Source: Mariniphaga anaerophila (lineage in GTDB: Bacteria > Bacteroidota > Bacteroidia > Bacteroidales > Prolixibacteraceae). From it: a stretch of DNA of 64,000 nucleotides. Position numbers and translations under genes: made by a program. Where the stretch lies: contig NZ_FQUM01000003.1 in NCBI RefSeq assembly GCF_900129025.1, positions 558,001-622,000 of the forward strand, written 5' to 3'. This document shows positions 46,201 through 59,809 of this stretch, piece by piece (the first letter of the stretch is position 1; the number at the start of each line of letters is the position of its first letter). The notes under the pieces were generated by a model, which made no database searches, was not told where the DNA came from, and worked only from the letters and a program-made list of their open reading frames with translations.

Positions 46201-49200
46201 CACATCACCCTCGCAGACAATCATCGGGATAGTGTCACGATATTCCGGGGTAACGTCTAAGTTCAGGGTCAATATGGAGTCACAACCCGACACGCTGGTT
46301 AATGTATGTTCGTAGAAACCGGCAGCGCTGATTTGCTGGCCATACCAGTCAAACGGTACATCACCCTCGCAGACAATCATCGGGATAGTGTCACGATATT
46401 CCGGGGTAACGTCAAAGTTCAAAGTCAATATCGAATCACAACCCGCGACGCTGGTTAATGTGTGTTCGTAGAAGCCGGCAGCACTGATTTGCTGGCCGTA
46501 CCAGTCAAACGGCACATCACCTTGGCAGACGGTCATCGGGATAGTATCGCGGTATTCAGGCGTAACGTCAAAGTTCAAGGTCAATATCGAATCACAACCA
46601 GCGACGCTGGTTAATGTGTGTTCGTAGAAACCGGCAGCGCTGATTTGCTGGCCGTACCAGTCAAACGGTACATCGCCCTCGCAGACAATCATCGGGATAG
46701 TGTCGCGGTATTCAGGGGTAACGTCAAAGTTCAAGGTCAATATCGAATCACAACCCGCGACGCTGGTTAATGTGTGTTCGTAGAAACCGGCGGCATTAAT
46801 CTGCTGGCCGTACCAGTCAAACGGCACGTCGCCCTCGCAGACGGTCATCGGGATAGTGTCGCGATACTCAGGGGTAACGTCAAAGTTCAGGGTTAATATG
46901 GAATCGCAACCCGCGACGCTGGTTAATGTGTGTTCGTAGAAACCGGCGGCATTAATCTGCTGGCCGTACCAGTCAAACGGTACATCGCCCTCGCAGACGG
47001 TCATCGGAATGGTGTCACGGTATTCAGGTGTAACGTCAAAGTTCAGGGTTAATATGGAATCGCAACCCGCAACGCTCGTTAATGTGTGTTCGTAGAAACC
47101 GGCGGCATTAATCTGCTGGCCGTACCAGTCAAACGGTACATCACCCTCGCAGACCGTCATCGGGATGGTGTCGCGGTATTCGGGTGTAACGTCGAAGTTC
47201 AGGGTTAATATGGAATCGCAACCCGCAACGCTCGTTAATGTGTGTTCGTAGAAACCGGCGGCATTAATCTGCTGGCCGTACCAGTCAAACGGTACATCAC
47301 CCTCGCAGACCGTCATCGGGATGGTGTCGCGGTATTCGGGTGTAACGTCGAAGTTCAGGGTTAATATGGAATCGCAACCCGCAACGCTCGTTAATGTGTG
47401 TTCGTAGAAACCGGCGGCATTAATCTGCTGGCCGTACCAGTCAAACGGCACATCGCCCGCACAGACGGTCATCGGGATAGTGTCGCGGTATTCAGGGGTC
47501 ACGTCAAAGTTCAAAGTCAATATGGAATCGCAACCAGCGACGCTGGTTAATGTATGTTCGTAGAAACCGGCGGCACTAATTGATTGGCCGTACCAGTCAA
47601 ATGGTACATCGCCCTCGCAGACGGTCATCGGGATAGTGTCGCGGTATTCAGGGGTAACATCGAAGTTCAGGGTTAATATGGAATCGCAACCAGCGACACT
47701 GGTTAATGTATGTTCATAGAAGCCGGCGGCACTAATTGATTGGCCGTACCAGTCAAACGGTACATCGCCCTCGCAGACGGTCATCGGGATGGTGTCACGG
47801 TATTCCGGGGTAACGTCAAAGTTCAATGTCAGAATCGAGTCACAACCCGCAACGCTCGTTAATGTATGTTCATAGAAACCGGCGGCATTAATCTGCTGGC
47901 CGTACCAGTCAAACGGTACATCGCCCTCGCAGACAATCTTCGGGATAGTGTCACGGTATTCCGGGGTAACGTCAAAGTTCAAAGTCAATATGGAATCACA
48001 ACCCGCCACGCTGGTTAATGTATGTTCGTAGAAGCCGGCGGAACTGATTTGCTGGCCGTACCAGTCAAACGGCACATCGCCCGCACAGACGGTCATCGGG
48101 ATAGTGTCGCGGTATTCAGGGGTCACGTCAAAGTTCAAAGTCAATATGGAATCGCAACCAGCGACGCTGGTTAATGTATGTTCGTAGAAACCGGCGGCAC
48201 TAATTGATTGGCCGTACCAGTCAAATGGTACATCGCCCTCGCAGACGGTCATCGGGATAGTGTCGCGGTATTCAGGGGTAACGTCAAAGTTCAGGGTTAA
48301 TATGGAATCACAACCTGCGACGCTGGTTAATGTATGTTCATAGAAACCGGCAGCACTGATTTGCTGGCCGTACCAGTCAAACGGCACATCGCCCGAGCAG
48401 ACGGTCATCGGGATGGTGTCACGGTATTCCGGGGTAACGTCAAAGTTCAATGTCAGAATCGAGTCACAACCCGCAACGCTCGTTAATGTATGTTCGTAGA
48501 AGCCGGCAGCACTGATTTGCTGACCGTACCAATCAAACGGCACATCGCCCGCACAAACAATCATCGGGATAGTGTCGCGGTATTCAGGGGTAACGTCAAA
48601 GTTCAGGGTTAATATGGAATCACAACCCGCGACGCTGGTTAATGTGTGTTCATAGAAGCCGGCAGTACTGATTTGCTGGCCATACCAGTCAAACGGTACA
48701 TCGCCCTCGCAGACGGTCATCGGAATGGTGTCGCGGTATTCAGGGGTCACGTCAAAGTTCAGGGTCAATATGGAATCACAACCTGCGACGCTGGTTAATG
48801 TATGTTCGTAGAAACCGGCAGCACTGATTTGCTGGCCGTACCAGTCAAACGGCACATCGCCCGAGCAGACGGTCATCGGGATAGTGTCGCGGTATTCCGG
48901 GGTAACGTCGAAGTTCAGGGTCAATATGGAATCACAACCCGCAACGCTCGTTAATGTGTGTTCGTAGAAACCGGCAGAACTGATTTGTTGTCCGTACCAG
49001 TCAAACGGTACGTCGCCCTCGCAGACAATCATCGGGATAGTGTCGCGATATTCAGGTGTAAGGTCAAAATTCAATGTCAATATGGAATCGCAACCCGCAA
49101 CGCTCGTTAATGTATGTTCGTAGAGACCGGCAGAACTGATTTGCTGGCCGTACCAGTCAAACGGTACATCGCCCTCGCAGACAATCATCGGAATGGTGTC

Positions 49201-52200
49201 GCGGTATTCCGGGGTAACGTCAAAGTTAAATGTCAAAATCGAGTCACAACCAGCGACGCTCGTTAATGTATGTTCGTAGAAACCGGCAACGCTGATTTGC
49301 TGACCGTACCAGTCAAACGGTACATCGCCCGCACAAACAGTCATCGGGATGGTGTCACGGTACTCAGGCGTAACATCGAAGTTCAGGGTCAATATGGAAT
49401 CACAACCCGCCACGCTGGTTAATGTGTGTTCGTAGAAGCCGGCGGCACTGATTGATTGGCCGTACCAATCAAACGGCACATCGCCCTCGCAGACGGTCAT
49501 CGGGATAGTGTCGCGGTATTCAGGTGTAACGTCAAAGTTCAGGGTCAATATGGAATCACAACCTGCGACGCTGGTTAATGTGTGTTCGTAGAAACCGGCG
49601 GCATTAATCTGCTGGCCGTACCAGTCAAACGGTACATCGCCCTCGCAGACAATCATCGGGATAGTGTCACGGTATTCCGGGGTAACGTCAAAGTTCAGGG
49701 TCAATATGGAATCACAGTCGGCGACGCTCGTTAATGTGTGTTCGTAGAAACCGGCGGCATTAATCTGCTGGCCGTACCAGTCAAACGGTACATCGCCCGC
49801 ACAAACAGTCATCGGGATAGTGTCACGATATTCCGGGGTAACGTCAAAGTTCAGGGTCAATATGGAATCACAACCCGCGACGCTGGTTAATGTGTGTTCG
49901 TAGAAACCGGCAGTACTGATTTGCTGGCCGTACCAGTCAAACGGCACATCACCCGCACAAACAGTCATCGGGATAGTGTCACGATATTCCGGGGTAACGT
50001 CAAAGTTCAGGGTCAATATGGAATCACAACCCGCGACGCTGGTTAATGTGTGTTCGTAGAAACCGGCAGTACTGATTTGCTGGCCGTACCAGTCAAACGG
50101 CACATCACCCGCACAAACAGTCATCGGGATAGTGTCACGATATTCCGGGGTAACGTCAAAGTTCAGGGTCAATATGGAATCACAACCCGCGACGCTGGTT
50201 AATGTGTGTTCGTAGAAACCGGCGGAACTAATCTGCTGGCCGTACCAGTCAAACGGTACATCGCCCGCACAAACAGTCATCGGGATGGTATCGCGGTAAA
50301 TCGGCGAAACATCCAGATTGACAGTCAGGATAGAATCGCAGCCCGATACCGACTGAAGCGTATCGGAATAGAAACCCGGGAAACTCAGCGACTGTCCCTG
50401 CCACAAATACGGCAATTCATTTTCGCAAGCTATGTAATCAGTGGTATCGCGGTAAATTGGTGAAACATCCAAATTAACCGTCAGGATAGAATCACAGCCC
50501 GATACCGACTGAAGCGTATCGGAATAGAAACCCGGGAAACTCAACGATTGTCCCTGCCACAAATACGGCAATTCATTTTCGCAAGCTATGTAATCGGTGG
50601 TGTCGCGGTAAATCGGCGAAACATCCAAATTAACCGTCAGGATAGAATCGCAGCCCGCTACCGACTGAAGCGTGTCGGAATAGAAACCCGGAAAACTCAG
50701 CGACTGTCCCTGCCACAAATAAGGCAATTCATTTTCGCAGGCTATGTAATCGGTGGTGTCGCGGTAAATCGGTAAAACATCTAAATTAACCGTCAGTATA
50801 GAATCGCAGCCCGATACCGACTGAAGCGTGTCGGAATAGAAGCCCGGGAAACTCAGCGACTGTCCCTGCCACAAATACGGCAATTCGTTTTCGCAGGCTA
50901 TGTAATCGGTGGTGTCGCGGTAAATCGGCGAAACATCCAAATTAACCGTCAGGATGGAATCGCAACCCGCTACCGACTGAAGCGTGTCGGAATAGAAACC
51001 CGGGAAGCTTAGCGACTGTCCCTGCCACAAATACGGCAATTCGTTTTCGCAGGCTATGTAATCAGTGGTATCGCGGTAAATCGGTGAAACATCCAAATTA
51101 ACCGTCAGGATGGAATCGCAGCCCGATACCGACTGAAGCGTGTCGGAATAGAAACCCGGAAAACTCAGCGACTGTCCCTGCCACAAATAAGGCAATTCAT
51201 TTTCGCAGGCTATGTAATCGGTGGTGTCGCGGTAAATCGGTAAAACATCTAAATTAACCGTCAGTATAGAATCGCAGCCCGATACCGACTGAAGCGTGTC
51301 GGAATAGAAGCCCGGGAAACTCAGCGACTGTCCCTGCCACAAATACGGCAATTCGTTTTCGCAGGCTATGTAATCGGTGGTGTCGCGGTAAATCGGCGAA
51401 ACATCCAAATTAACCGTCAGGATGGAATCGCAACCCGCTACCGACTGAAGCGTGTCGGAATAGAAACCCGGGAAGCTTAGCGACTGTCCCTGCCACAAAT
51501 ACGGCAATTCGTTTTCGCAGGCTATGTAATCAGTGGTATCGCGGTAAATCGGTGAAACATCCAAATTAACCGTCAGGATGGAATCGCAGCCCGATACCGA
51601 CTGAAGCGTGTCGGAATAGAAACCCGGAAAACTCAATGACTGTCCCTGCCACAAATAAGGCAATTCGTTTTCGCAGGCAATCAGCTCTATTGTATCGCGA
51701 GTGGCCGGGAATACTTCCACCCAAATGGTATCAGAATTATCACACCCATTTTCGTCCGTCACCTTATACACCAGTTGGTAACTGCCTGCCGGAGCATCTC
51801 TAAATTCAGGAGTAGCGCTGTCTGTTGCGCTCAGAAAGGCAATTCCGCCACCAGTCCACAAATGGGTATAAATTCCTGTTCCACCTTCTGAATAACCATT
51901 TAATACAAGAGTATCGCTTTCGCACATTTGCGCCGGGTCCGGAGTTATTTCGACCAACAACTCATCGGGTTGTGTGATATCCGCAGAATCTACTGCGGTA
52001 CACCCCAGTTCATCGGTAACCGACAAATAATATCTTCCGGAGGCCAGATTGGTAATTTCAGGTGTATCGGCAGTGAATCCATCCGGTCCGGTCCATGCAT
52101 AAGTGTAAACTCCTGTCCCTCCTGAGAGACTTGCCAGAACAGAGCCGGCATTTCCGCCGTAGCATGACTGGGAACTTGCTGTCAGAACAATTTCAGGCTG

Positions 52201-52818
52201 ACTTAAAATGACATCTACCGTTGAGATAGCTGGTTCACAACTCCCGGCGCTTCCCCGTCCGATGGCGGCGAGCGAAAGTGTAACACTGCCGGCAGCCAAA
52301 TCATTTTCGCCGGGGAAATAGGTCGGGCGGACTGCGCTAGCGTCACTGAAAGTCCCGTCTCCAAACGATGTCCAAATCAACACCGAATAATTGGATGCCG
52401 TGGCTTCCTCCAAAAAGATACTCTGACCGGCACAGGCCAGAATTTCATTACCGGCAAAGGCATCGGGAGCGGGAACAACTTCCACCTCGCCCAGCTCGTT
52501 GTTCACACAATCGTGCGAACTGGTTTGCTCGGCAGAAAGGCTGTAAATTCCAGGTTCAATATCCCAGAGAATAATAACTTCACTTCCCTGAATAGGTAGT
52601 CCGTCGCGGGTATCTGTAAAATCAGACCACTCGAACCTTGACGGAGTTACAATGGTACCATCTTCGGCCTCCAGTTGCCACACCCATGTTGAGCCCGGCT
52701 CCCCGTCGATACGATAGGTGCGTTCTGCACCCCGGCATACGGTATCAAATACCTGTCCGGTAGCTTTTGTTGCAGCCACCAGAAGGATTATCATGAATAT
52801 GTATGCCAGCCGTTTCAC
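40297..52818 (-). CDS. giant repeat-rich surface protein with type IX (type B) sorting domain
   Basis: 4173 residues. A signal peptide 'MKRLAYIFMIILLVAATKATG' opens it, followed by PKD/Ig-like N-terminal modules and one SprB-type module (about 215-285). Nine 52-residue repeats (about 374-841) and 36 related 52-residue repeats (about 842-2713) follow. Then come an Ig-like unit, two SprB-type modules, HYR-like modules with paired Cys, nine ~69-residue 'GPxC' repeats (about 3230-3860) and two Ig-like units with 'VLDNDSDANSELDV'-type turns. The last ~90 residues, opening 'FIPEGFSPNGDNVHDFFQI', are the gliding-motility-associated (CHU_C) C-terminal signal used by type IX secretion. It is probably an exported, surface-exposed adhesin or fibre. 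It lies 65 nt downstream of the 232-aa gene. Confidence 0.93.
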   Translation of the reverse strand: MKRLAYIFMIILLVAATKATGQVFDTVCRGAERTYRIDGEPGSTWVWQLEAEDGTIVTPSRFEWSDFTDTRDGLPIQGSEVIILWDIEPGIYSLSAEQTSSHDCVNNELGEVEVVPAPDAFAGNEILACAGQSIFLEEATASNYSVLIWTSFGDGTFSDASAVRPTYFPGENDLAAGSVTLSLAAIGRGSAGSCEPAISTVDVILSQPEIVLTASSQSCYGGNAGSVLASLSGGTGVYTYAWTGPDGFTADTPEITNLASGRYYLSVTDELGCTAVDSADITQPDELLVEITPDPAQMCESDTLVLNGYSEGGTGIYTHLWTGGGIAFLSATDSATPEFRDAPAGSYQLVYKVTDENGCDNSDTIWVEVFPATRDTIELIACENELPYLWQGQSLSFPGFYSDTLQSVSGCDSILTVNLDVSPIYRDTTDYIACENELPYLWQGQSLSFPGFYSDTLQSVAGCDSILTVNLDVSPIYRDTTDYIACENELPYLWQGQSLSFPGFYSDTLQSVSGCDSILTVNLDVLPIYRDTTDYIACENELPYLWQGQSLSFPGFYSDTLQSVSGCDSILTVNLDVSPIYRDTTDYIACENELPYLWQGQSLSFPGFYSDTLQSVAGCDSILTVNLDVSPIYRDTTDYIACENELPYLWQGQSLSFPGFYSDTLQSVSGCDSILTVNLDVLPIYRDTTDYIACENELPYLWQGQSLSFPGFYSDTLQSVAGCDSILTVNLDVSPIYRDTTDYIACENELPYLWQGQSLSFPGFYSDTLQSVSGCDSILTVNLDVSPIYRDTTDYIACENELPYLWQGQSLSFPGFYSDTLQSVSGCDSILTVNLDVSPIYRDTIPMTVCAGDVPFDWYGQQISSAGFYEHTLTSVAGCDSILTLNFDVTPEYRDTIPMTVCAGDVPFDWYGQQISTAGFYEHTLTSVAGCDSILTLNFDVTPEYRDTIPMTVCAGDVPFDWYGQQISTAGFYEHTLTSVAGCDSILTLNFDVTPEYRDTIPMTVCAGDVPFDWYGQQINAAGFYEHTLTSVADCDSILTLNFDVTPEYRDTIPMIVCEGDVPFDWYGQQINAAGFYEHTLTSVAGCDSILTLNFDVTPEYRDTIPMTVCEGDVPFDWYGQSISAAGFYEHTLTSVAGCDSILTLNFDVTPEYRDTIPMTVCAGDVPFDWYGQQISVAGFYEHTLTSVAGCDSILTFNFDVTPEYRDTIPMIVCEGDVPFDWYGQQISSAGLYEHTLTSVAGCDSILTLNFDLTPEYRDTIPMIVCEGDVPFDWYGQQISSAGFYEHTLTSVAGCDSILTLNFDVTPEYRDTIPMTVCSGDVPFDWYGQQISAAGFYEHTLTSVAGCDSILTLNFDVTPEYRDTIPMTVCEGDVPFDWYGQQISTAGFYEHTLTSVAGCDSILTLNFDVTPEYRDTIPMIVCAGDVPFDWYGQQISAAGFYEHTLTSVAGCDSILTLNFDVTPEYRDTIPMTVCSGDVPFDWYGQQISAAGFYEHTLTSVAGCDSILTLNFDVTPEYRDTIPMTVCEGDVPFDWYGQSISAAGFYEHTLTSVAGCDSILTLNFDVTPEYRDTIPMTVCAGDVPFDWYGQQISSAGFYEHTLTSVAGCDSILTLNFDVTPEYRDTIPKIVCEGDVPFDWYGQQINAAGFYEHTLTSVAGCDSILTLNFDVTPEYRDTIPMTVCEGDVPFDWYGQSISAAGFYEHTLTSVAGCDSILTLNFDVTPEYRDTIPMTVCEGDVPFDWYGQSISAAGFYEHTLTSVAGCDSILTLNFDVTPEYRDTIPMTVCAGDVPFDWYGQQINAAGFYEHTLTSVAGCDSILTLNFDVTPEYRDTIPMTVCEGDVPFDWYGQQINAAGFYEHTLTSVAGCDSILTLNFDVTPEYRDTIPMTVCEGDVPFDWYGQQINAAGFYEHTLTSVAGCDSILTLNFDVTPEYRDTIPMTVCEGDVPFDWYGQQINAAGFYEHTLTSVAGCDSILTLNFDVTPEYRDTIPMTVCEGDVPFDWYGQQINAAGFYEHTLTSVAGCDSILTLNFDVTPEYRDTIPMIVCEGDVPFDWYGQQISAAGFYEHTLTSVAGCDSILTLNFDVTPEYRDTIPMTVCQGDVPFDWYGQQISAAGFYEHTLTSVAGCDSILTLNFDVTPEYRDTIPMIVCEGDVPFDWYGQQISAAGFYEHTLTSVSGCDSILTLNLDVTPEYRDTIPMIVCEGDVPFDWYGQQISAAGFYEHTLTSVSGCDSILTLNLDVTPEYRDTIPMIVCEGDVPFDWYGQQISAAGFYEHTLTSVSGCDSILTLNLDVTPEYRDTIPMIVCEGDVPFDWYGQQINAAGFYEHTLTSVAGCDSVLTLNFDVTPEYRDTIPMIVCEGDVPFDWYGQQISSAGFYEHTLTSVAGCDSILTLNFDVTPEYRDTIPMTVCEGDVPFDWYGQQINAAGFYEHILTSVAGCDSILTLNFDVTPEYRDTIPMTVCSGDVPFDWYGQQINAAGFYEHILTSVAGCDSILTLNFDVTPEYRDTIPMTVCSGDVPFDWYGQQINAAGFYEHTLTSVAGCDSILTLNFDVTPEYRDTIPMIVCSGDVPFDWYGQQISTAGFYEHTLTSVSGCDSILTLNFDVTPEYRDTIPMTVCSGDVPFDWYGQQISTAGFYEHTLTSVAGCDSILTLNFDLTPEYRDTIPMIVCEGDVPFDWYGQSISAAGFYEHTLTSVAGCDSILTLDLTTIPELTVSITIAADQTDVMEGEQVIFTATPVNGGTNPVYAWFVNDVPVTGETSITYTYIPVDGDVVYATLLSDLDCAAPKPAESNRITVTVTTKPDDLEATLTAVSILCFGESTGAIDLNVSGGTAPYSFTWSNGATTEDLTNLPAGTYTVTITDNTGLSVQLSVDVIQPTEIILSATKVDVGFSADPIGSIDLTVSGGTDPYSYEWTGPNGFTSTSQDIDNLEGGAYIVLVTDANGCEASYALVIEAKDPQYSMACPPDLAFDCVGDEDPIFRNYHEFVAAGGSAVSDCVLNEPSFSGVEISRTGTCPTTIIRRYSILDGCGNELECFQTIIIDDNVSPRFPLNPYPAVVDCVDDVPAPFRDGRQGYIQFRQRYGSATDNCGIDESTFRFIDGYPTDEDCPKIQTVRRVYEIKDFCGNYARFYERIEVKDEISPAIVCPPDVAFEGELSDLVTLTGLAYSETEQNIPLSNAGSLGLTISDNCAVVSLSYHDVATGNCPAIVRRTFTVSDGCNENSCTQVITLDHKIIPEFDPIGPLCQFSKAPSLHDTSKNGITGKWTPATINTATYGTGIYTFVPGAGQCAVEVTMEIEITDEIIPEFDPIGPFCLNETPADLPTVSENGITGTWDPAVISTSKIGVFSYTFNPEAGQCAAPFVIEIVVTDEIASVFDPIGPFCLNSVPPALPDVSVNGISGTWEPITINTSAYGEFDYTFTPFEGQCAGPVTIKIEITDEQVPDFVQMGPFCQNTVAPDLPTVSENGISGSWSPSTIGTAVAGMATYVFTPDPYLCATSVTMRIEIIKEVVPVFAQIGPLCQNSVPPELPDVSTNGVSGNWSPSSIDTDVPGVFMFVFTPQGETCYKEDTMYIEIQQEIVPQVAPIGPLCLGEAPPTLPLTDVNGIAGTWKPSAVSTAATGEFEFVFIPDAGYACAINDTIIIEIQDNISPVFDVIGPVCQLDVPPALPNADLNDVTGTWSPDTIDTSTPGLYDFTFTPDAIFPCAVPVTITVEINTLIIPQFAPIGPLCQNSDAPDLPEANFNGVTGVWIPAVISTDQPGIFPYAFTPDDGFNCARPDTLYVEIMPSIIPEFAPIGPLCIGENPVTLPSTDKNGVAGTWEPAIVDISTPGVFEFVFIPDGAVDCAFNDTIQIEVIDNAPPLALNDSTVTLQNQTVMIAVLDNDSDANSELDVTSVRIIKNPENGTATASPLTGVVTYTPSVDFVGYDTLFYAVSDDGIPCDPLSDTARVVFEVKVPNNPPVAVNDSFSVMCFPLIEYVLPNDYDPDGDNFRIITWPMVDVQHGTVSIASDGAFVYMPDEEFVGIDTFVYRICDDGFPSMCDEATVWINVLPSVDCDGLPDDEEEIPTECSLFIPEGFSPNGDNVHDFFQIYCIEKYPDAIMRIFDRAGNKLFEKRNYGNLDKWGSDQNAWWWGNSEHTFTLGRGTVPAGNYLYVLELGNGEVRTGTVMVAY
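41245..43125 (-). repeat. nine ~69-residue repeats (IGP-C type) within the giant gene
   Basis: Each unit reads approximately 'P.F.PIGP.C....P..LP' then 'NGI.G.W.P..I.T...G...F.F.P....CA' and ends with an 'I.IEI.D' strand; boundaries are approximate. Copies differ at many positions, unlike the 52-residue arrays, so this is an old duplication. Each copy has two Cys about 45 residues apart that could bond within the unit. Confidence 0.85.
44680..50295 (-). repeat. 36 tandem 156-bp units (type B, 52 residues) in the giant gene
   Basis: Units begin 'RDTIPMTVC.GDVPFDWYGQ' and end 'GCDSILTLNFDVTPEY'. Variation is confined to a few positions (T/I and A/E/S/Q around the first Cys, Q-IS/S-IS/Q-IN before 'AG', V/A before 'GCDS'). 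Runs of adjacent units are almost identical at the DNA level, for example those beginning near 45911, 46067 and 46223. Each unit has two Cys. The array is an assembly-collapse risk, so the true copy number may differ. Confidence 0.95.
50296..51699 (-). repeat. nine tandem 156-bp units (type A, 52 residues) in the giant gene
   Basis: Units begin 'RDTTDYIACENELPYLWQGQ' (the first reads 'RDTIELIACENE') and end 'GCDSILTVNLDVSPIY'. Length and key residues (RDT, C, P, W, GQ, GFY, TL.SV, GCDSILT) match type B, so both arrays descend from one 52-residue module. A three-unit (468 bp) block is duplicated within the array. Confidence 0.95.
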
Positions 52819-53597: not shown

Positions 53598-54944
53598 TCA
53601 CTTCCGTTCCAAGTTATCAGGCATTACTTTTTTCGCCTTTACTTTATCAGAGTTCGTGAGCTTAGCGTTCGTTTCTTCTTTCCCGACGTTGTCAGGTGTT
53701 GCACACGCTGACAAGTCTGAATCTGAAGCATCGGCTTTTAAACAAGCTGAAGAAACACAAGTTTCCAGCGGCTCCTTTTTTTGGATTCCAGAAATTACTT
53801 CTGAATTTTTCAACCTGTCAGCGTCGTCAGACCTGACAGCGTTGATGCTCGCTGAAACATGCGAAGACTTGTTCTTCTTGTTGACGTTGTCAGGTGTTGC
53901 ACACGCTGACAAGTCTGAATCTGAAGCATCGGCTTTTAAACAAGCTGAAGAAACACAAGTTTCCAGCGGCTCCTTTTTTTGGATTCCAGAAATTACTTCT
54001 GAATTTTTCAACCTGTCAGCGTCGCCAGACCTGACAGCGTTTAAACCCGCTGAAACGTTCAAAGCCTTGTTCTTCTTGTTGACGTTGTCAGATGCTGCGC
54101 ATGCTGACAAGTCTGTTCTGCCGGGAACTTCTATTTCGGTTGTATAATCGACTGCATTCAAATCCAGCCATTCTTCCATTTCTTCTACATCAATTTCTTG
54201 GGTGTGTTGATTTTCAAAATTATTTCGTTCATTAAACAGGCTCAATACAACTTCGCGTTTAAATTTTGTAGGTTTATTTGAAATACAAGTTAAATAGCTC
54301 GACCAGGGATACTCCAGCAGGTGGGTGCAGAATCCGTGATGAACAGGATTGTTATGAACATACAGGATGACCTTTTTCAAATACGCCTCATTACGTATCT
54401 GCTTCCGCTTAAACGGACGTTCGAATAAATTACCTGTCCCTTCAGTGATTTTATTGAAATAGCGGGTGTAAGCATTGAAAAGGTGTGAGAAATGACGATG
54501 TAACACCGGCTTTTTCATTTCCGCGTTATCAGAAATTTCGCATTCCGACATCTCAACCGTTTCCCACTTATGGGCTTCAAACCAGGCCTTATCTCTCTTT
54601 CCCACGCTCACGTCAGCCATATTTTTTTCAGCATTGCCGGAATCGCCAGACGCTGCCATATCTACGGAATCAACCTTCGGCCGATAAATATCCCGAACAA
54701 AAGTGTTCTGCTGCAACCCCGGATTGGCATACTTATAAACCACGTTCTCTTTTAGCCGAACGACCAAATGGAAATGATTTGGCATCAGCACCCAGGCAAA
54801 AGTCTCGGCCACCGGCGAAATATACTTGTCGTACAACGCCAGGAAATGCTCGTAATGAACCGGCTCCAAAAACAGATCTCTCCGGTTATTGCCACGATTA
54901 TAGATGTGATAATATTTCCCGTTTATCAATCTCTCGTATTTCAT
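53598..54944 (-). CDS. REP-associated tyrosine transposase (RAYT) with REP-encoded C-terminal extension
   Basis: 448 residues from the ATG at 54944 ('MKYERLINGKYYHIYNRGNN'); this ATG overlaps the stop of the preceding ORF as ATGA. The Y1-transposase fold is shown by the HUH motif in 'MPNHFHLVV' (His 57 and 59) and the catalytic Tyr about 195 in 'LYVHNNPVHHG'. Such enzymes, relatives of IS200/IS605 TnpA, cut single-stranded DNA at REP hairpins; they are typically about 150-250 residues. Here residues ~278-448 are unusual: they are the in-frame translation of the REP-type hairpin repeats (array 53685-54113). Whether the extension is made and tolerated is not known. Confidence 0.88.
   Translation of the reverse strand: MKYERLINGKYYHIYNRGNNRRDLFLEPVHYEHFLALYDKYISPVAETFAWVLMPNHFHLVVRLKENVVYKYANPGLQQNTFVRDIYRPKVDSVDMAASGDSGNAEKNMADVSVGKRDKAWFEAHKWETVEMSECEISDNAEMKKPVLHRHFSHLFNAYTRYFNKITEGTGNLFERPFKRKQIRNEAYLKKVILYVHNNPVHHGFCTHLLEYPWSSYLTCISNKPTKFKREVVLSLFNERNNFENQHTQEIDVEEMEEWLDLNAVDYTTEIEVPGRTDLSACAASDNVNKKNKALNVSAGLNAVRSGDADRLKNSEVISGIQKKEPLETCVSSACLKADASDSDLSACATPDNVNKKNKSSHVSASINAVRSDDADRLKNSEVISGIQKKEPLETCVSSACLKADASDSDLSACATPDNVGKEETNAKLTNSDKVKAKKVMPDNLERK
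53685..54113. repeat. REP-type hairpin array 1 (198-bp period) inside the RAYT 3' end
   Basis: Type-A hairpins (33 bp, arm TTGTCAG) start at 53685, 53883 and 54081; type-B hairpins (32 bp, arm CTGTCAG) start at 53812 and 54010. In each B-A pair the two are inverted relative to each other and start 71 bp apart, like a BIME. The period is 198 bp, a multiple of 3, and the whole array is open in the RAYT frame, giving 'DLSACATPDNV' from type A and 'NAVRSGDADRL' from type B. Confidence 0.85.
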
Positions 54945-56347
54945 TTCATTACCTTCCATTCCTTTAATTCATCACACAAAACTTCTGCCTTCCCTAACCT
55001 GTCAGCGTCGCCAGACCTGACAGCGTTGATGCTCGCTGAAACGTTCGAAGTCTTTCTGCTTCTCCCGACGTTGTCAGATGTTGCGCATGCTGACAAGTCT
55101 AAGCCTGAACCTGAACCAAGACTGTCGCCGTTCAAACAAATCGGATAAACTGAAATTTCCTGTTGTTTCATTTTTATATCGTCAAACAATGCATAGCACT
55201 TCCCTAACCTGTCAGCGTCGCCAGACCTGACAGCGTTTAAACCCGCTAAAACACGCGAAGACTTGTTGTTCGTCCCGACGTTGTCAGATGTTGCGCATGC
55301 TGACAAGTCTAAGCCTGAATTCAAATCAAACCTGTCGCCGTTCAAACAAATTGGATAAGCTGAAATTTCCTGTTGTTTCATTTTTATATCGTCAAACAAT
55401 GCATAGCACTCCCCCAACCTGTCAGCGTCGTCAGACCTGACAGCGTTTAAACCCGCTGAAACATGCGAAGACTTGTTGTTCTTCCCGACGTTATCAGATG
55501 TTGCGCATGCTGACAAGTCTAAGCCTGAATTCAAATCAAACCTGTCGCCGTTCAAACAAATCGGATAAGCTGAAATTTCCTGCTGCTTCATTTTTATATC
55601 GTCAAACAATGCATAGCACTCCCCTAACCTGTCAGCGTCGCCAGACCTGACAGCGTTGATGCTCGCTGAAACGTTCGAAGTCTTTCTGCTTCTCCCGACG
55701 TTGTCAGATGATGCGCATGCTGACAAGTCTAAGCCTGAATTCAAATCAAACCTGTCGCCGTTCAAACAAATTGGATAAGCTGAAATTTCCTGTTGTTTCA
55801 TTTTTATATTGTCAAACAATGCATAGCACTCCCCTAACCTGTCAGCGTCGCCAGACCTGACAGCGTTTAAACCCGCTGAAACATGCGAAGACTTGTTGTT
55901 CGTCCCGACGTTGTCAGATGTTGCGCATGCTGACAAGTCTTTATCCCATGCGGGGTTGTTGCCCCATGGCCGGGATGCTGCCAAAATTGTTTCGCGCGGA
56001 AGCAAAAACATCCTTCCCGGCGGCGTGCGTCCGCGTATTGGCATAGCGTTGCCATATTCTGACGGAGCCCGTTTTGTTGGTCTCGCGGGGCCATGCCTTG
56101 CCCTGTCGGGCGGATCGGTTCCGTCACGAATATGCAGCTTTGTACCGTCGCGAATGCGCAGAATCGTTCTGCTGCCGGGATGCAAAAATGCGTCGGCCCC
56201 GGTTGCAGGGAGACACCGTTTCCCCAGGGTGGGCATGCCTCTGGCATAAGGCCCGTTTCGTGTGGCGGGCGGCCCTTTTTTCGGAATATGTATTTCTATC
56301 ATACTACCATTACTATTTTTTAAGGTATTTGATGAAACGCACCACAA
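54941..56347 (-). CDS. ORF built largely from REP-type repeats, translationally abutting the RAYT
   Basis: Open for 468 codons; a second start at 56302 ('MIEIHIPKKGPP') is at least as plausible. Residues ~17-135 are Arg/Gly/Pro-rich with a partial 8-residue periodicity ('LRIRDGTK', 'LHIRDGTD'). Residues ~136-455 are the translation of five 210-bp REP-array units: 'DLSACATSDNV', a linker, 'NAVRSGDADRL', then 'GECYALFDDIKMKQQEISAY'. The stop overlaps the RAYT start as ATGA, the classical arrangement for translational coupling. I recognise no fold and no signal peptide. It may be a genuine RAYT-associated protein or open merely because the repeat lacks stops; expression evidence is needed to decide. 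Confidence 0.35.
   Translation of the reverse strand: MWCVSSNTLKNSNGSMIEIHIPKKGPPATRNGPYARGMPTLGKRCLPATGADAFLHPGSRTILRIRDGTKLHIRDGTDPPDRARHGPARPTKRAPSEYGNAMPIRGRTPPGRMFLLPRETILAASRPWGNNPAWDKDLSACATSDNVGTNNKSSHVSAGLNAVRSGDADRLGECYALFDNIKMKQQEISAYPICLNGDRFDLNSGLDLSACASSDNVGRSRKTSNVSASINAVRSGDADRLGECYALFDDIKMKQQEISAYPICLNGDRFDLNSGLDLSACATSDNVGKNNKSSHVSAGLNAVRSDDADRLGECYALFDDIKMKQQEISAYPICLNGDRFDLNSGLDLSACATSDNVGTNNKSSRVLAGLNAVRSGDADRLGKCYALFDDIKMKQQEISVYPICLNGDSLGSGSGLDLSACATSDNVGRSRKTSNVSASINAVRSGDADRLGKAEVLCDELKEWKVMK
54996..55939. repeat. REP-type hairpin array 2 (210-bp period, five units)
   Basis: Type-B hairpins start at 54996, 55206, 55416, 55626 and 55836; type-A hairpins at 55067, 55277, 55487, 55697 and 55907. 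The B-A offset is 71 bp as in array 1, but the ~106 bp between pairs is unrelated to array 1. The linker inside the pair alternates between two versions ('..SSHVSAGL' and '..KTSNVSASI' in translation). Confidence 0.88.
56025..56240. repeat. GC-rich segment with partial 24-bp periodicity
   Basis: On the minus strand three to four consecutive 24-mers share a TGCA/TGCG start and a CGnGACGG core (clearest at about 56110-56185). Neighbouring 24-mers are too diverged to align with confidence. Composition is much richer in GC than the flanking adhesin genes. Confidence 0.4.
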
Positions 56348-56764
56348 CCGCTATTTTGCTGCGGCAAAAATATCAATCGTTGTTTGCTTCATTTGCCAAA
56401 TCCGTTAATAACTGCAAAACTCATGTTGTAAACGTCAGACTCAGGCCTCTTCCCCGCGCCCGGTTTCGGTGCCGGGAAACCCGTTCCCGTGCTGCGGAAA
56501 CAGCGGTACAGAAGAAGTGCTTTGCATCTTTTCGTTTTCAACCTTTTACTGCTTTACATTTTTAAACACTGCTCGTTTCATTCCTTTTTGGTGGAGCGGG
56601 CAGGCGCCTTTGGTGGCGGGCATTTGTTGCTGCCGGCAAAAGCCAATTACAACCAATCCCCGTTTTCCTCCGGACTTCCCGCGCACCCCGCACCCCGGCT
56701 CCTTTCAAATTAGCGGACAACCGGGATGCGGCGCGGAATGAAAAAGCAAAATCAAACTCTAACC
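56348..56764. other. intergenic region downstream of the 384-aa gene
   Basis: 417 bases, partly GC-rich. I see no ORF with a convincing start, no hairpin followed by a T-run on the minus strand and no REP-type hairpin. It may hold the end of the 384-aa transcript. Confidence 0.4.
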
Positions 56765-57919
56765 TTACGGTTTAGGTTCAAATGACATATCACCAACACC
56801 AACAGCTGTATTAGTTACAATTTCCGGTCTCGGAGTCAGATCATATGTAGCTTGATCTGTTTCGGTATTCGTACACGGAGAGTTTGTCCCTGGATCTAAA
56901 TCTGCAAGATTACTATTTGCATATTCATTTCCTGTCGTTGCACCTGCATCATACATTACACCATCAACACCGAGAGTAAAGTAACGATTTGCATTTGCGT
57001 CATTTTCCGCTGTACCATGATCTAAATGAACTCTTACAATAATACACTCACCTGCATCCCCAACAGCTCCAGACGCATCCTGAGCATTAACTACAGCAGT
57101 TGCAGCATTCCAAGTCCCAGTAGCATTTGTTCCGTCATTTGCGATGGCTTGATCAGGATAAGCCCACTCAATATTAGATATATCTACAGTTGTTTCTGTT
57201 CCATTATCTACAATTGTAAATGTTGGCTGCCATGAATGAACAAAATTGGCTGCATTAACTGCAAAGAATATATAATTCTCACCATAATCCATATTCAAAT
57301 TAGTACCATCGTATGATGCAATTTGAACTGGTGATACACATTCATTAGCATTACTTCCAGATGCTGGCAGGGTACCGTCAGGCATCAAACCTGCAATATC
57401 AAGTGTAAAAGAGAATGAAGGTTGAATACGATACACTTCAATATTATCCGAACAACCTGCTTCTCCCTCTACGTATGCAACCAACAAAATCTCAGTTGTT
57501 GCACTATTAAATGATTGCCAAGAAATATCAATCGTCGGTTGTGTATTTGTATCAGAATTATAAACGTTATCTTCTGCATCCAGCAAATATAGGCTTCCAC
57601 CGCCATCTGCTTCAGCTGCGCCTACAGCTGTGGCAATAGAACCCCCAGTGATGATGTCAGCACCATTCGCCGTGGCATTGTAAACGAACCATCTGATATA
57701 TCCAGTTGTAACAGTAGGATTTACAGTCACTCCGTACGTGTATGTTTTCCCTGGTATTGGATGAAGCGCATCATCATCGGCACAATCCAATGTCGTTGGA
57801 GTAACGCATTCTGTTGATGCAGCATCAATATAATTAATATCGCCCTGCCCATAAGATTTCATTCCGGCAAAAACTAATGCCAGAGTAAACATCGCTAAAA
57901 TTAAAATTTGCTTTTTCAT
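56765..57919 (-). CDS. secreted surface-locus protein of unknown fold
   Basis: 384 residues with a signal peptide 'MKKQILILAMFTLALVFAGM' ending near 'KSYGQ'. The mature part is acidic, rich in Thr/Asn/Asp/Ala and poor in Lys/Arg, with paired Cys ('STECVTPTTLDCADDD', 'EGEAGCSD', 'NANECVSP', 'GECIIVRVHLDHG', 'NSPCTNTET'), suggesting an exported disulfide-bearing beta-rich protein. Its C-terminus 'YDLTPRPEIVTN' echoes the C-terminus of the partial giant at the right edge ('VITPRPEIIKI'), so the two may share a terminal function. A 5' leader hairpin (57936-57949) precedes the ATG. No type IX sorting domain is recognised. Confidence 0.75.
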   Translation of the reverse strand: MKKQILILAMFTLALVFAGMKSYGQGDINYIDAASTECVTPTTLDCADDDALHPIPGKTYTYGVTVNPTVTTGYIRWFVYNATANGADIITGGSIATAVGAAEADGGGSLYLLDAEDNVYNSDTNTQPTIDISWQSFNSATTEILLVAYVEGEAGCSDNIEVYRIQPSFSFTLDIAGLMPDGTLPASGSNANECVSPVQIASYDGTNLNMDYGENYIFFAVNAANFVHSWQPTFTIVDNGTETTVDISNIEWAYPDQAIANDGTNATGTWNAATAVVNAQDASGAVGDAGECIIVRVHLDHGTAENDANANRYFTLGVDGVMYDAGATTGNEYANSNLADLDPGTNSPCTNTETDQATYDLTPRPEIVTNTAVGVGDMSFEPKP

Positions 57920-58336
57920 TTTGTTAAAATTTAGAGTCTCTTTCGAGACGTGTTAATGAATAAAAATTTGTTTCAAATTGTTACTAATTAAATTGTTAAA
58001 AAAAATATCAGATTGGGAACCGGGACAATTGAGAAGCAGTGAACCATCAGCTTTCAAAAGGCCGGATGGCAATACACCAATTGCTCATTTCCATTTTCCA
58101 TCGTCAATCTGTTAAAGAACGCATTTCGTTATTTCTCGGGGTTTACGTTTCCCGGTGCGTCAGGCCGGAGTCGGTAACATTGCCGGTTATTTCAACTTCC
58201 GTTTTACCGGACGTTAACCAAACAACATTAGCCGGGTCGGCTCATCAGCCGGCAGCGATTTTAACCGTTCGGTGCCAGCTTTTTAAACACTGTCAGGCCT
58301 ACCAGCGCTAACAGGTTTAGTGGTGTGGTTTTTACT
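57920..58336. other. leader of the 384-aa gene and intergenic DNA with one solo REP
   Basis: On the minus strand CGTCTC-GAAA-GAGAC (57936-57950) forms a short stem with a GNRA-type loop 16 nt before the ATG at 57919. A TTTG lies farther upstream but no TAnnTTTG at the right distance. The rest has no recognised gene; one degenerate REP-type hairpin lies at 58286-58317. Confidence 0.4.
58286..58317. repeat. solo degenerate REP-type hairpin
   Basis: It matches the type-B hairpin in the opposite orientation: arm CTGTCAG, far arm CTAACAG (one mismatch), and the extra unpaired C is retained. It lies outside any array. Confidence 0.6.
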
Positions 58337-59809
58337 TTAACTCACGGGCAAGCCTCCTTTCTCTTTATTCGTCCCTGGGCTTCGCTCCGGTAAAAAGGAG
58401 GCCAATTGGCTTTCCGGCAGAAGGACGGTTGGGTTAGTTACCGGCAGGCTGTGCACAGTGCGTGTAAAACCTGCTAAAATTGGCGATACCCAAGGGCTGC
58501 TAAAAAAAGATAAGATGATGGTGATGGTAGCAGCCCCGGGACAATCGCCGGAATAAAAGCGTCCCCGCGGCAAGAGGGGAACAGCTTTATATTTTATGCC
58601 GGCAGCTGTTGGCTGGTAACCAGCGGCCACCGGGTTTTGGTTGTCTGTTGAATATTTTTGTTCGGCAATGCCGAAAATTTCGGTGCATTGAGTACTTATT
58701 TCCGTCCGTTGAGTACCTGTTTCGGTGCATCGAGCATCCGTTTCCATGCATGAAGTTCCTGTTTCTGCACACCGAGACTCTATTTCCATATATCGAGCAC
58801 ATATTTCGGTGCATTGAGCTGTTATTTCCATGCATTGAGCCGATATTTCCATGCGTTGAGTTCCCATTTCGGTACAATGAGCCCCCGTTGCGTTACATTG
58901 CGTCTCCAATATGATGCAGTGACTCTCCCACCCGGTGCAGCGTAATTCCGCTGTGGTACAATGGCCCGTCGCCATGGTACACCGGGCAGCAGCCACGGTA
59001 CTAGGCACAACAGCCGCCTTACGCACCGTTTTCGCATCCGTCCGGGCCATTTTTCCATATTCCGGCATCTGAAGTACCATTTTCACGTTTGGTTGCGTTG
59101 CGTAATTCTGTTTGATGTTGTTCCCAAACCTGACAGCGTCGGTAGACCTGTCAGCGTTAAAAGAATACCTTGCAAAACTTGAATCCAGTATCTGATGACA
59201 CCCGCTTTTGTTGCCTGTGCTTTGTTCGACGTTGTCAGGTGCTACGCACGCTGACAAGTCTGAGCCGTATACAAAAACTGTTGCTTCGTTCCCAAACCTG
59301 ACAGCGTCAAAAGACCTGTCAGCGTTAAAAGAATACCTTGCAAAACTTGAATCCGGTATCTGATGACACCCGCTTTTGTTGCCTGTGCTTTGTTCAACGT
59401 TGTCAGGTGCTACGCACGCAGACAAGTCGGAGCCGTATACAAAGACTGTTGCTTCGTTCCCAAACCTGACAGCGTCAAAAGACCTGTCAGCGTTAAAAGA
59501 ATACCTTGCAAAACTTGAATCCGGTATCTGATGACACCCGCTTTTGTTGCCTGTGCTTTGTTCGACGTTGTCAGGTACTGCGTACGCTGACAAGTCTGAG
59601 CTGTAAACAAACCACTCACTCCACAAGGCATCCAATCCCCGGGTTCGTCTCAAACCAATCCTCTGTCCCCGGCGTTCCGCACTCTGCCCTCTGCCCCCGG
59701 CGCTCTGCTCTTGGCGCTCTGCACTCTGCACTCTGCCCTTGGCTCTCCGCTCTCGGCTCTCTGCCCTCTGCGCCTTGCCCTCTGCTCCTATGTATCTTAG
59801 TTCTTTCAT
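58337..59809 (-). CDS. low-complexity ORF spanning 7-bp, REP-type and 21-bp repeats (doubtful gene)
   Basis: Open for 490 codons and starting at an ATG that overlaps the stop of the partial giant as ATGA. Residues ~8-50 translate a degenerate heptanucleotide repeat (Arg/Gln/Glu/Gly-rich). Residues ~70-235 translate three 168-bp REP-array units ('DLSACVAPDNVEQSTGNKSG'). Residues ~270-385 translate the 21-bp repeat as a 7-residue period with Cys or Arg first ('CTEMGTQ', 'CMEITAQ'). There is no signal peptide, unlike its neighbours. The frame may be open only because the larger repeats have lengths divisible by three. The ATGA junction is the main argument for translation. Confidence 0.3.
   Translation of the reverse strand: MKELRYIGAEGKAQRAESRERRAKGRVQSAERQEQSAGGRGQSAERRGQRIGLRRTRGLDALWSEWFVYSSDLSAYAVPDNVEQSTGNKSGCHQIPDSSFARYSFNADRSFDAVRFGNEATVFVYGSDLSACVAPDNVEQSTGNKSGCHQIPDSSFARYSFNADRSFDAVRFGNEATVFVYGSDLSACVAPDNVEQSTGNKSGCHQILDSSFARYSFNADRSTDAVRFGNNIKQNYATQPNVKMVLQMPEYGKMARTDAKTVRKAAVVPSTVAAARCTMATGHCTTAELRCTGWESHCIILETQCNATGAHCTEMGTQRMEISAQCMEITAQCTEICARYMEIESRCAETGTSCMETDARCTETGTQRTEISTQCTEIFGIAEQKYSTDNQNPVAAGYQPTAAGIKYKAVPLLPRGRFYSGDCPGAATITIILSFFSSPWVSPILAGFTRTVHSLPVTNPTVLLPESQLASFLPERSPGTNKEKGGLPVS
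58678..58992. repeat. 21-bp minisatellite, about 15 units
   Basis: In strict 21-bp register from 58678, units have a conserved core TTTCGGTGCATTGAG (or TTTCCATGCATTGAG) followed by six variable bases. The first ten units (to 58887) are clear; later ones decay but keep the TGCA/TACA core. All six frames are largely open across it, so coding cannot be inferred from openness. Confidence 0.85.
59127..59596. repeat. REP-type hairpin array 3 (168-bp period, three units)
   Basis: Type-B hairpins start at 59127, 59295 and 59463; type-A hairpins at 59228, 59396 and 59564. The B-A offset here is 101 bp and the linker is unrelated to arrays 1 and 2. Type-B arms are CTGACAG/CTGTCAG, the reverse of the other arrays, with pairing kept. 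Confidence 0.87.
59660..59785. repeat. degenerate heptanucleotide repeat, 18 units
   Basis: Eighteen consecutive 7-mers in unbroken register with consensus CTCTGCN-type words (plus-strand forms such as CCTCTGC, ACTCTGC, CCCCGGC). The other strand is purine-rich. It begins 24 bp inside the ATGA-coupled ORF. The type recalls the short tandem repeats known in cyanobacteria. Confidence 0.8.

Follow-up and report, generated by a model that had tools for sequence, protein, structure and literature searches.

What can be learned about the hairpin choice of a single-strand transposase from a stretch of 64,000 nucleotides of the Mariniphaga anaerophila genome (contig NZ_FQUM01000003.1, positions 558,001 to 622,000; hereafter the window)? 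Between positions 53685 and 59597 the window holds 21 array hairpins, 11 of type A and 10 of type B, in three tandem arrays, together with one decayed solo copy, and they accompany a gene for a transposase of the RAYT (REP-associated tyrosine transposase; REP, repetitive extragenic palindrome) family. Judged from sequence, this bacterium from a little-studied branch of the Bacteroidota probably has a RAYT/REPIN system of a Bacteroidota RAYT clade whose hairpins lack the GTAG motif. The hairpins co-occur with the clade of the window RAYT, flank its genes and, in numerous relatives, are placed in frame within them, and their fold covaries beyond controls, also in a wider alignment. The in-gene hairpins appear to be under selection at the level of the nucleotides, and this selection, a RAC/GTY foot and changed reader residues appear to be new.

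The hairpins had been described before in a sequence-only reading, which located all 21 array copies and the solo at 58290 where we find them too (Table 1). The inner stems that it quoted for five A copies (at 53685, 53883, 54081, 59228 and 59564) are correct, as is its statement that the central pair of type B is T-A in arrays 1 and 2 and A-T in array 3. Of the arm and adjacent unpaired base that it took to be shared by all copies, the unpaired base is present in 21/21, but the arm is mismatched in the copies at 55487 (TTATCAG) and 59396 (CAGACAA); the two-sided stem changes that it reported are real, but it did not mention ATGT/GCAT with a T.G wobble in four copies of array 2, nor ATGA/GCAT at 55697. 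Its hairpin was moreover incomplete, a second unpaired base and three more complementary bases outside the arm, GAC/GTC in type A and AAC/GTT in type B, having been overlooked. Read from its base inwards, the full REP has 3 bp (RAC/GTY), one bulged nucleotide, a 7-bp stem, one bulged nucleotide on the opposite side, 3-4 bp and a loop of 3-4 nt. Once oriented by their bulges, both types follow, with few exceptions, the order RACG, arm, inner stem, loop, inner stem, G, arm, GTY, and form a single family in which type A has an inner stem of 4 bp and a loop of 3 nt, and type B, which is A inverted, one of 3 bp and 4 nt. The stem is preceded on its 5' side by GACG in 28/30 A and by AACG in 22/23 B of the strong copies in the genome, and in the minimum-energy fold of the plus strand the extra 3-bp base forms in 20/21 window copies, with 2 bp of it in the copy at 59396. 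The classical GTAG foot is missing, as the sequence-only reading had rightly observed, and neither GTAG nor GTGG was found at the place of the foot; self-complementary RAC/GTY feet stand there instead. As expected of REPs and REPINs, the hairpins are short imperfect palindromes, multicopy and often arranged as inverted pairs, and where A is followed by B on the plus strand of the window, the RAC/GTY feet face outward in a REPIN-like manner. The gap from A to B is 13 nt in one copy of locus L024, 32 nt in array 3 and 92 or 104 nt in arrays 1 and 2, where neighbouring hairpins are separated by 39 nt.

Copies outside the window are readily found in the genome, which comprises 5.05 Mb (G000; in the following, C-numbers denote contigs, L-numbers loci and G-numbers genomes). 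The arm-pair pattern occurs at 35 places, one of which (C29:133062) lies outside the hairpin family judging from its inner sequence, while the reversed control has 0 matches in the 5.05-Mb genome. Two covariance models built from own-genome copies, R1 and R2, yielded 47 and 34 matches, respectively, with E no higher than 0.1; these totals include A-B cross-matches. The genome-wide search and copy count that the sequence-only reading had proposed thus yield 30 A and 23 B strong copies in five clusters, the solo being excluded from the count, and weaker scattered matches that include near pairs (C22:504 kb and C29:677 kb). The solo itself is a weak match of 25.6 bits (E 1.1e-5 in the window, 8.6e-4 in the genome). 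A restriction of the hairpins to this one place, which would have spoken against the sequence-only reading by its own account, is contradicted by these copies and by those in 19/79 other relatives. Among the own-genome copies, type A has two-sided changes in 3/11 pairs, with 6 cells versus 1.2 in shuffled alignments, and type B in 2/10 pairs, with 8 cells versus 2.7; the cell counts and covariation scores of A and B were each reached by 0/500 shuffles, and slid versions gave 0 or 1 cells. As copies of the same array are tandem duplicates, the window alone contributes, by our reading, only about four independent paired changes, and this non-independence makes the own-genome covariation by itself modest evidence.

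The transposase gene is closer to the hairpins than the sequence-only reading had it: array 1 does not merely adjoin the RAYT open reading frame (ORF) but lies within its 3' part. The 453-residue product has the expected HUH and tyrosine motifs (N61 H62 F63 H64, Y200, N204 P205), whose residues are invariant in a 42-row alignment (A7) except for F63 (41/42). Its structural model is confident at residues 11-80 and 151-260, of low confidence past residue 271 and has pLDDT values in the 50s in the linker (81-120); of the solved structures, 4er8, a complex of TnpAREP with a REP hairpin, is nearest (Foldseek E 1.5e-7; profile E 1.6e-4). The protein has no Pfam match, and its NCBIfam NF047646 score of 64.7 bits lies below the cut-off of 80, as do those of six clade relatives (33-63), in comparison to 99.3 for a second RAYT of the genome (L023:6119-6649, 176 aa), which is of the PF01797 type. 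Besides the window RAYT itself, its genome has a single full-length paralog of 230 aa (L017/L026) and incomplete copies where C43 and C29 end, 59-63% identical to it in the aligned pieces; the several near-identical transposase copies of an IS200/IS605 element are thus not found.

Could the arrays be repeats of a protein, with their paired changes caused by selection on the peptides (DLSAC..DNV / NADRS.DAVRF)? The array periods of 198, 210 and 168 are all multiples of three, the same minus-strand frame is open in all three arrays, and the in-gene hairpins of relatives, described below, keep to one codon phase. The RAYT ORF continues for about 170 residues through array 1, whereas its paralog at L017 stops near the core. 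However, the 74 variable sites of the array units fall on the three codon positions as 21, 24 and 29, so that there is no third-position excess, and it was on these counts that we rejected protein-coding arrays; the absence of a codon-position bias argues for array 1 as a read-through rather than a selected domain. Further, array 1 has an open frame on its plus strand too (53656-54147), the A-to-A spacings in another cluster (194, 209, 210, 208) are in 3/4 cases not multiples of three, the covarying arms alter the peptide between hairpin types, and the low model confidence of the RAYT tail suggests that this C-terminal tail is probably disordered. To peptide selection we therefore give the least credence of the explanations considered here.

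The connection between hairpins and transposase can be followed in a sample of 80 genomes, the own genome and 79 relatives, with limits of E up to 0.01 for R1, 1e-20 for window-type RAYTs and 1e-8 for the second RAYT type. R1 matches were found in 20 genomes, window-type RAYTs in 23 and the second type in 28. Genomes with a window-type RAYT have R1 matches in 13/23 cases, those without in 7/57 (Fisher p 9.5e-5); the association holds when the own genome is left out (12/22 with the window type; p 2.2e-4) and within the family only (13/20 vs 4/28; p 5.5e-4). At the level of loci, R1 matches at E <1e-4 occur in 11/29 window-type loci (29 of 30 were searched, as L117 repeats the gene of L101) in contrast to 1/30 second-type loci. 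Of the 11, seven carry an in-gene match (L090, L091, L095, L096, L097, L113, L115), which is the only R1 match in four of them (L090, L096, L097, L113); array or flanking DNA holds a match in seven (L016, L091, L092, L095, L100, L103, L115). Genome-level and locus-level association both argue for the sequence-only reading's suggestion that the window RAYT uses these hairpins. In one of these loci (L115:1495-1980), the frame of a window-type RAYT stops just past the start of the Tyr motif; this RAYT is probably inactive.

These counts also bear on the second RAYT as the enzyme that moves the hairpins. It is the genome's only PF01797 match at E up to 0.001 and stands at L023 in an A - RAYT - B arrangement, with B inverted, accompanied by an internally deleted derivative; initially, we preferred this L023-type RAYT as the cognate enzyme and dropped it on the locus and genome association counts. 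The single second-type locus with R1 is that of the own genome alone, and R1 is not associated with the second type at the level of genomes (9/28 vs 11/52; p 0.29). The L023 element has other hairpin-like stretches just outside its gene and, in our own reading, looks inserted into a REPIN. We consider it unlikely that this RAYT, which by our judgement is subclass 2.6-like, moves the hairpins. The region itself (L023:3100-6800) shows a second-type RAYT with its own hairpin-like stretches within an A-B pair, and the deleted derivative and a short remnant nearby.

In relatives of the window RAYT, an in-frame hairpin pair often encodes the linker that leads from the HUH strand to the following helix. 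For this analysis 110 loci were used (the window, L017 and L090-L197), 80 of them the best 80 of at least 396 relatives, and the 73 distinct genes whose frame could be read from the HUH motif through to the Tyr motif were kept, the rest being dropped. Their linkers hold B-type motifs in 34 genes, A-type motifs in 26 and either in 44, in the bulged build or an unbulged variant, compared to 17 B-type and 4 A-type motifs in the coding cores of these genes, which are about fourfold longer in total, and 17 and 9 in 1460 letter-shuffled linkers. The codon phase is 0 in 26/26 A motifs, 1 in 19/19 bulged B motifs and 0 in 14/15 unbulged B motifs, with phase 1 in the remaining one (L172). The arms vary by lineage (CTGTCAG, CTTTCAG, CTTTCGG, CCATCGG, CTTCCAG, CCGACGG, each with its complement) and the fold is kept: in-gene A (25 distinct rows) has two-sided changes in 11/14 pairs, with 78 cells versus 24.7 in shuffles, and in-gene B (19 bulged of 34; 17 distinct rows) in 9/13 pairs, with 13 versus 1.4, each count being reached by 0/500 shuffles and slid versions giving at most 11 and 4. 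Instead of vanishing in a wider alignment, which the sequence-only reading had named as a finding that would tell against it, the covariation grows stronger there. As the arms and inner stems served to pick the copies, their percentage paired follows by construction; the outer RAC/GTY pairs, which had no role in the selection, are paired in 23, 24 and 23 of the 25 distinct A rows, and the outermost one is A-U in 11 rows and G-C in 11, with 11 two-sided changes. In the tree the window gene is closest to L118 (69% over the core, fork support 92), whose linker carries an intact A - 39 nt - B cassette, with a gap equal to that in arrays 1 and 2, and the C-terminus of L096 has a hairpin-like TPEG..ERPERV stretch too. 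The linker of the window gene contains no in-gene hairpin motif, the best R1 score in the gene being 9 bits at another place. A repeat at 54511 was considered as a decayed A hairpin in this linker, on its position and peptide likeness only, and is left unscored by the model. A looser hairpin count over the 80 named loci (37/57 readable linkers, but 25/108 core segments in the control) and a k-mer test of linker hairpins in gene flanks, with mixed results from none to all k-mers recurring, were not used.

What keeps these in-gene hairpins in place? In 22 gene pairs of three types (10 CTTTCAG, 6 CCTTTCGG, 6 unbulged), synonymous codon differences amount to 0-0.17 in the linker hairpins versus 0.18-0.66 in the core, the lowest core value belonging to the close pair L093-L094; six chosen pairs, two per type, gave Fisher p values of 0.0015 to 3.6e-6. 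Likewise, 5/67 hairpin sites vary in four CTTTCAG-type genes versus 43/131 adjacent sites (p 4.3e-5), and in T1 linkers, which offered one usable pair for the synonymous test, the values are 2/8 for the hairpin and 24/41 for the core. In the four CTTTCAG-type genomes, the A hairpin, searched with up to 3 mismatches, is single and in the gene; of the B hairpin no second copy was found in G029 and G046, the latter 87% complete, one more lies near the gene in G018, which is 91% complete, and G040 has six related copies, so that in G046 and G018 a second copy could have been overlooked. As second copies were not found, copying from other genomic REPs is an unlikely cause of the low divergence, at least in G029. 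Exchange of cassettes between genes is the remaining alternative. In two genomes of one genus, L103 and L115 share 195/214 bases before the linker and 121/147 after it, and their hairpin types differ. On a core tree of 74 genes the linker types, assigned by a rough pattern match that labels, for example, the unbulged L099 and L172 as bulged, need 27 changes, where the minimum is 3 and the shuffled mean 39.1; as few changes occurred in 0/200 shuffles, so the types are also clustered.

That genes of RAYT subclass 2.4 can hold in-frame REPs between HuH and Y is already published, such insertions being regarded there as possibly of little consequence (PMC6006769), and REPs inside genes and REPs concentrated near RAYTs have been reported as well (PMC3733652, PMC8266576). 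In the passages of the literature searched, we found no description of the RAC/GTY foot, its link to changed residues, or in-gene covariation and synonymous constraint. Tentatively, we propose as one joint claim that the in-gene REPIN may be a working nucleic-acid part of the gene and not the scar of an insertion: the coding sequence would contain a substrate or binding site of the very RAYT that it encodes, under selection for its fold in single-stranded DNA or mRNA, and would serve self-regulation or the linkage of enzyme and substrate when the gene moves; the cassette could be exchanged while the core stays and would so record changes of specificity, and in this clade GTAG would have given way to RAC/GTY together with the reading residues. 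In-gene hairpins that are kept at the nucleotide level, in two genomes without a close second copy found, raise the question of whether REPs serve the RAYT itself.

The residues in question are W94, Q95, E100, H101 and R104 of E. coli TnpAREP, which are named in connection with GTAG recognition (PMC6006769, PMC8266576), the role of W94 being called unclear in PMC6006769. In two alignments of 25 and 42 rows, which partly share rows, the position of W94 is F in 24/25 and 42/42 rows, that of Q95 is E in 25/25 and 38/42, that of E100 is R in 25/25 and 40/42, and that of H101 is K in 15/25 and 34/42, while the site aligned to R104 varies, with D as its most common residue; the reading region is F-E-R-P-F-K-R-K here versus W-Q-P-R-F-W-E-H in E. 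coli. For E. coli TnpAREP, GTAG is described as essential and the bulge as needed (PMC8266576). The absence of the GTAG foot thus coincides with that of its readers, which is a correlation and not a test. The biochemistry of REP substrates, as reported in 2021 (PMC8266576), covers RAYT groups 2 and 3, whose reliance on GTAG differs; a clade that departs in both foot and reading residues offers a natural test of how single-strand transposases choose their hairpins.

Among described systems, subclass 2.4, or RAYT group 4 (Quentin et al., 2018; PMC6006769), shares Bacteroidetes hosts, a variable beta3-alphaC insertion, in-frame REPs between HuH and Y, NH[IFV]H, a Y-x-x-NNP-like motif, and some REPs with complementary ends (double foot). 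It differs in its foot, GT[AG]G/C[TC]AC versus RAC/GTY, and in well-conserved W94, Q95 and R104, which here are F, E and a variable site (PMC6006769); the two bulges in the A and B hairpins are a further difference. A beta3-alphaC insertion holding REPs is present in 44/73 clade genes but not in the window gene. As neither W94/Q95/R104 nor GT[AG]G is found, we do not file the clade as 2.4, only as working like it. Subclass 2.6 likewise has Bacteroidetes hosts, atypical hairpins and an unconserved GTAG-reading region, but its insertion of 21 aa lies between alphaC and beta4 instead of beta3 and alphaC (PMC6006769); the model of the window RAYT predicts 11 residues between helix 153-172 and strand 184-188. 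Going by Table 1 of PMC6006769, we judge the L023 protein to be closer to subclass 2.6 than the window RAYT is. With the E. coli TnpAREP REPtron (PDB 4er8; PMC8266576) the system shares the HUH Y1 fold, bulged REP hairpins and REPs near the gene, but there GTAG is essential and here it is missing. The CGTC REPs (Di Nocera et al., 2013; PMC3733652) are also non-GTAG palindromes, known in Bacteroidetes, in which dimers of two unlike partners are common. The GACG foot, which is CGTC on the other strand, suggested an identity with them, which we rejected since position and stem do not fit: their CGTC is described as terminal, their stem as almost always beginning with two A-T pairs, and they as flanking no RAYT (PMC3733652), while the hairpins here have a GACG/AACG base with covarying RAC/GTY and are associated with a RAYT. 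Rickettsia palindromic elements are in-frame hairpin insertions in coding sequence too, but their description in PMC3733652 gives no link to a transposase gene, in contrast to the RAYT link here.

How could such a system operate? The RAYT would bind the bulged hairpin in single-stranded DNA, its changed reading region would recognise the RAC/GTY base in place of GTAG, and its HUH/Tyr site would cut beside the foot and so move or duplicate REPINs. Tandem duplication at the hairpins could then have given rise to the arrays; array 1, which includes the 3' end of the RAYT gene, is read through into the probably disordered tail. Alternatively, the hairpins might be RNA elements, terminators or stabilisers of mRNA, with an incidental RAYT link. 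They fold stably on both strands (about -8 to -18 kcal/mol with RNA parameters), and REPs elsewhere have been proposed to work as RNA (PMC3733652). Their association is, however, limited to one RAYT clade, no T run was seen after the stems by eye, no terminator scan having been made, and no Rfam family reaches its gathering score in the window, so that a pure RNA role seems very improbable.

Several observations weigh against a RAYT/REPIN system of the window clade. Among the five clusters of strong copies, the window-type RAYT is present only in the window, one other cluster has a different RAYT inside it, and the full-length paralog (L017) and the partial copies at the C43 and C29 ends carry another hairpin type (CCTTTCGG). 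Ten of the 23 genomes with a window-type RAYT have no R1 match, and 7/57 without it do, including G011 (7) and G019 (12); the two RAYT searches differ in their E-value limit (1e-8, 1e-20), and since R1 and R2 were made from this genome, their reach to other hairpin types is limited. In the own-genome copies, the number of changed pairs in type B (2) was matched by 175/500 shuffles, the number of pair types was raised over the shuffles in neither A nor B, and 12/25 distinct A copies lack pairing at one position of the inner stem, which mostly reads A.A. The R1-negative genomes of the clade may carry other hairpin types, three of which were searched. The CCTTTCGG type was found in 5/23 genomes, namely G027 and the four whose linker is of this type, its reversed control matching in G063 only; the CTTTCAG type exists as the linker copy only in G018, G029, G040 and G046, with four weaker places at 3 mismatches in G001 and one in G035; and the AACCTGACAGGTTT type was found in 12/23. 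A one-to-one rule by which the linker hairpin type equals the genomic type was rejected, as it holds for CCTTTCGG and fails for CTTTCAG. Palindromes of the form NNCCTGACAGGTTTnnnAAACCTGTCAGGNN were seen in 12/23 genomes searched, their ends often being AT...AT or GA...TC.

Table 1. Coordinates of the RAYT gene, the arrays and hairpins of the window, and the genomic clusters of strong copies
Feature	Position	Strand	Remarks
RAYT (HUH Y1 transposase) ORF, 453 aa	53598..54959	-	NHFH 61-64; Y200 in YVHNNP
RAYT linker, HUH strand to next helix	54480..54720	-	site of in-frame REPs in relatives
Array 1	53598..54114	-	period 198; in frame with 3' part of RAYT ORF
Array 2	54963..55945	.	period 210
Array 3	59120..59623	.	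period 168
Type A hairpin	53685..53718	+	inner stem GTGT/ACAC
Type B hairpin	53811..53843	-	array 1
Type A hairpin	53883..53916	+	inner stem GTGT/ACAC
Type B hairpin	54009..54041	-	array 1
Type A hairpin	54081..54114	+	inner stem ATGC/GCAT
Type B hairpin	54995..55027	-	array 2
Type A hairpin	55067..55100	+	ATGT/GCAT (wobble)
Type B hairpin	55205..55237	-	array 2
Type A hairpin	55277..55310	+	ATGT/GCAT (wobble)
Type B hairpin	55415..55447	-	array 2
Type A hairpin	55487..55520	+	one arm mismatch (TTATCAG)
Type B hairpin	55625..55657	-	array 2
Type A hairpin	55697..55730	+	ATGA/GCAT (mismatch)
Type B hairpin	55835..55867	-	array 2
Type A hairpin	55907..55940	+	ATGT/GCAT (wobble)
Solo, decayed type B	58286..58318	+	25.6 bits
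Type B hairpin	59126..59158	-	array 3; central pair A-T
Type A hairpin	59228..59261	+	GTGC/GCAC
Type B hairpin	59294..59326	-	array 3; central pair A-T
Type A hairpin	59396..59429	+	one arm mismatch (CAGACAA)
Type B hairpin	59462..59494	-	array 3; central pair A-T
Type A hairpin	59564..59597	+	GTAC/GTAC
Cluster of strong copies	window		11 A, 10 B
Cluster of strong copies	C29:173.9-177.4 kb		9 A, 4 B
Cluster of strong copies	C29:188-192 kb		3 A, 3 B
Cluster of strong copies	C29:351-354 kb		6 A, 5 B
Cluster of strong copies	C42:72.7 kb		1 A, 1 B

Elsewhere in the genome, L026 (G000:C43:41000-45592) contains CRISPR repeats, likely cas2 and cas1, a RAYT gene and tandem 334-bp units of a RAYT 5' half that run to the contig end, and L027 (G000:C29:722000-726006) contains a cas9-like gene and similar 5'-half units, again to the contig end. 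The units of both carry the CCTTTCGG-type hairpin, and the two are probably one locus split by the repeat. Within the window, 21-nt repeats and CTCTGC-like 7/14-nt repeats occupy 58677-58919 and 59648-59801, inside the frame 58337-59809, and an open frame of 4173 aa at 40297-52818 consists mostly of near-identical repeats (YRDTIPMTVC..., YRDTTDYIAC...).

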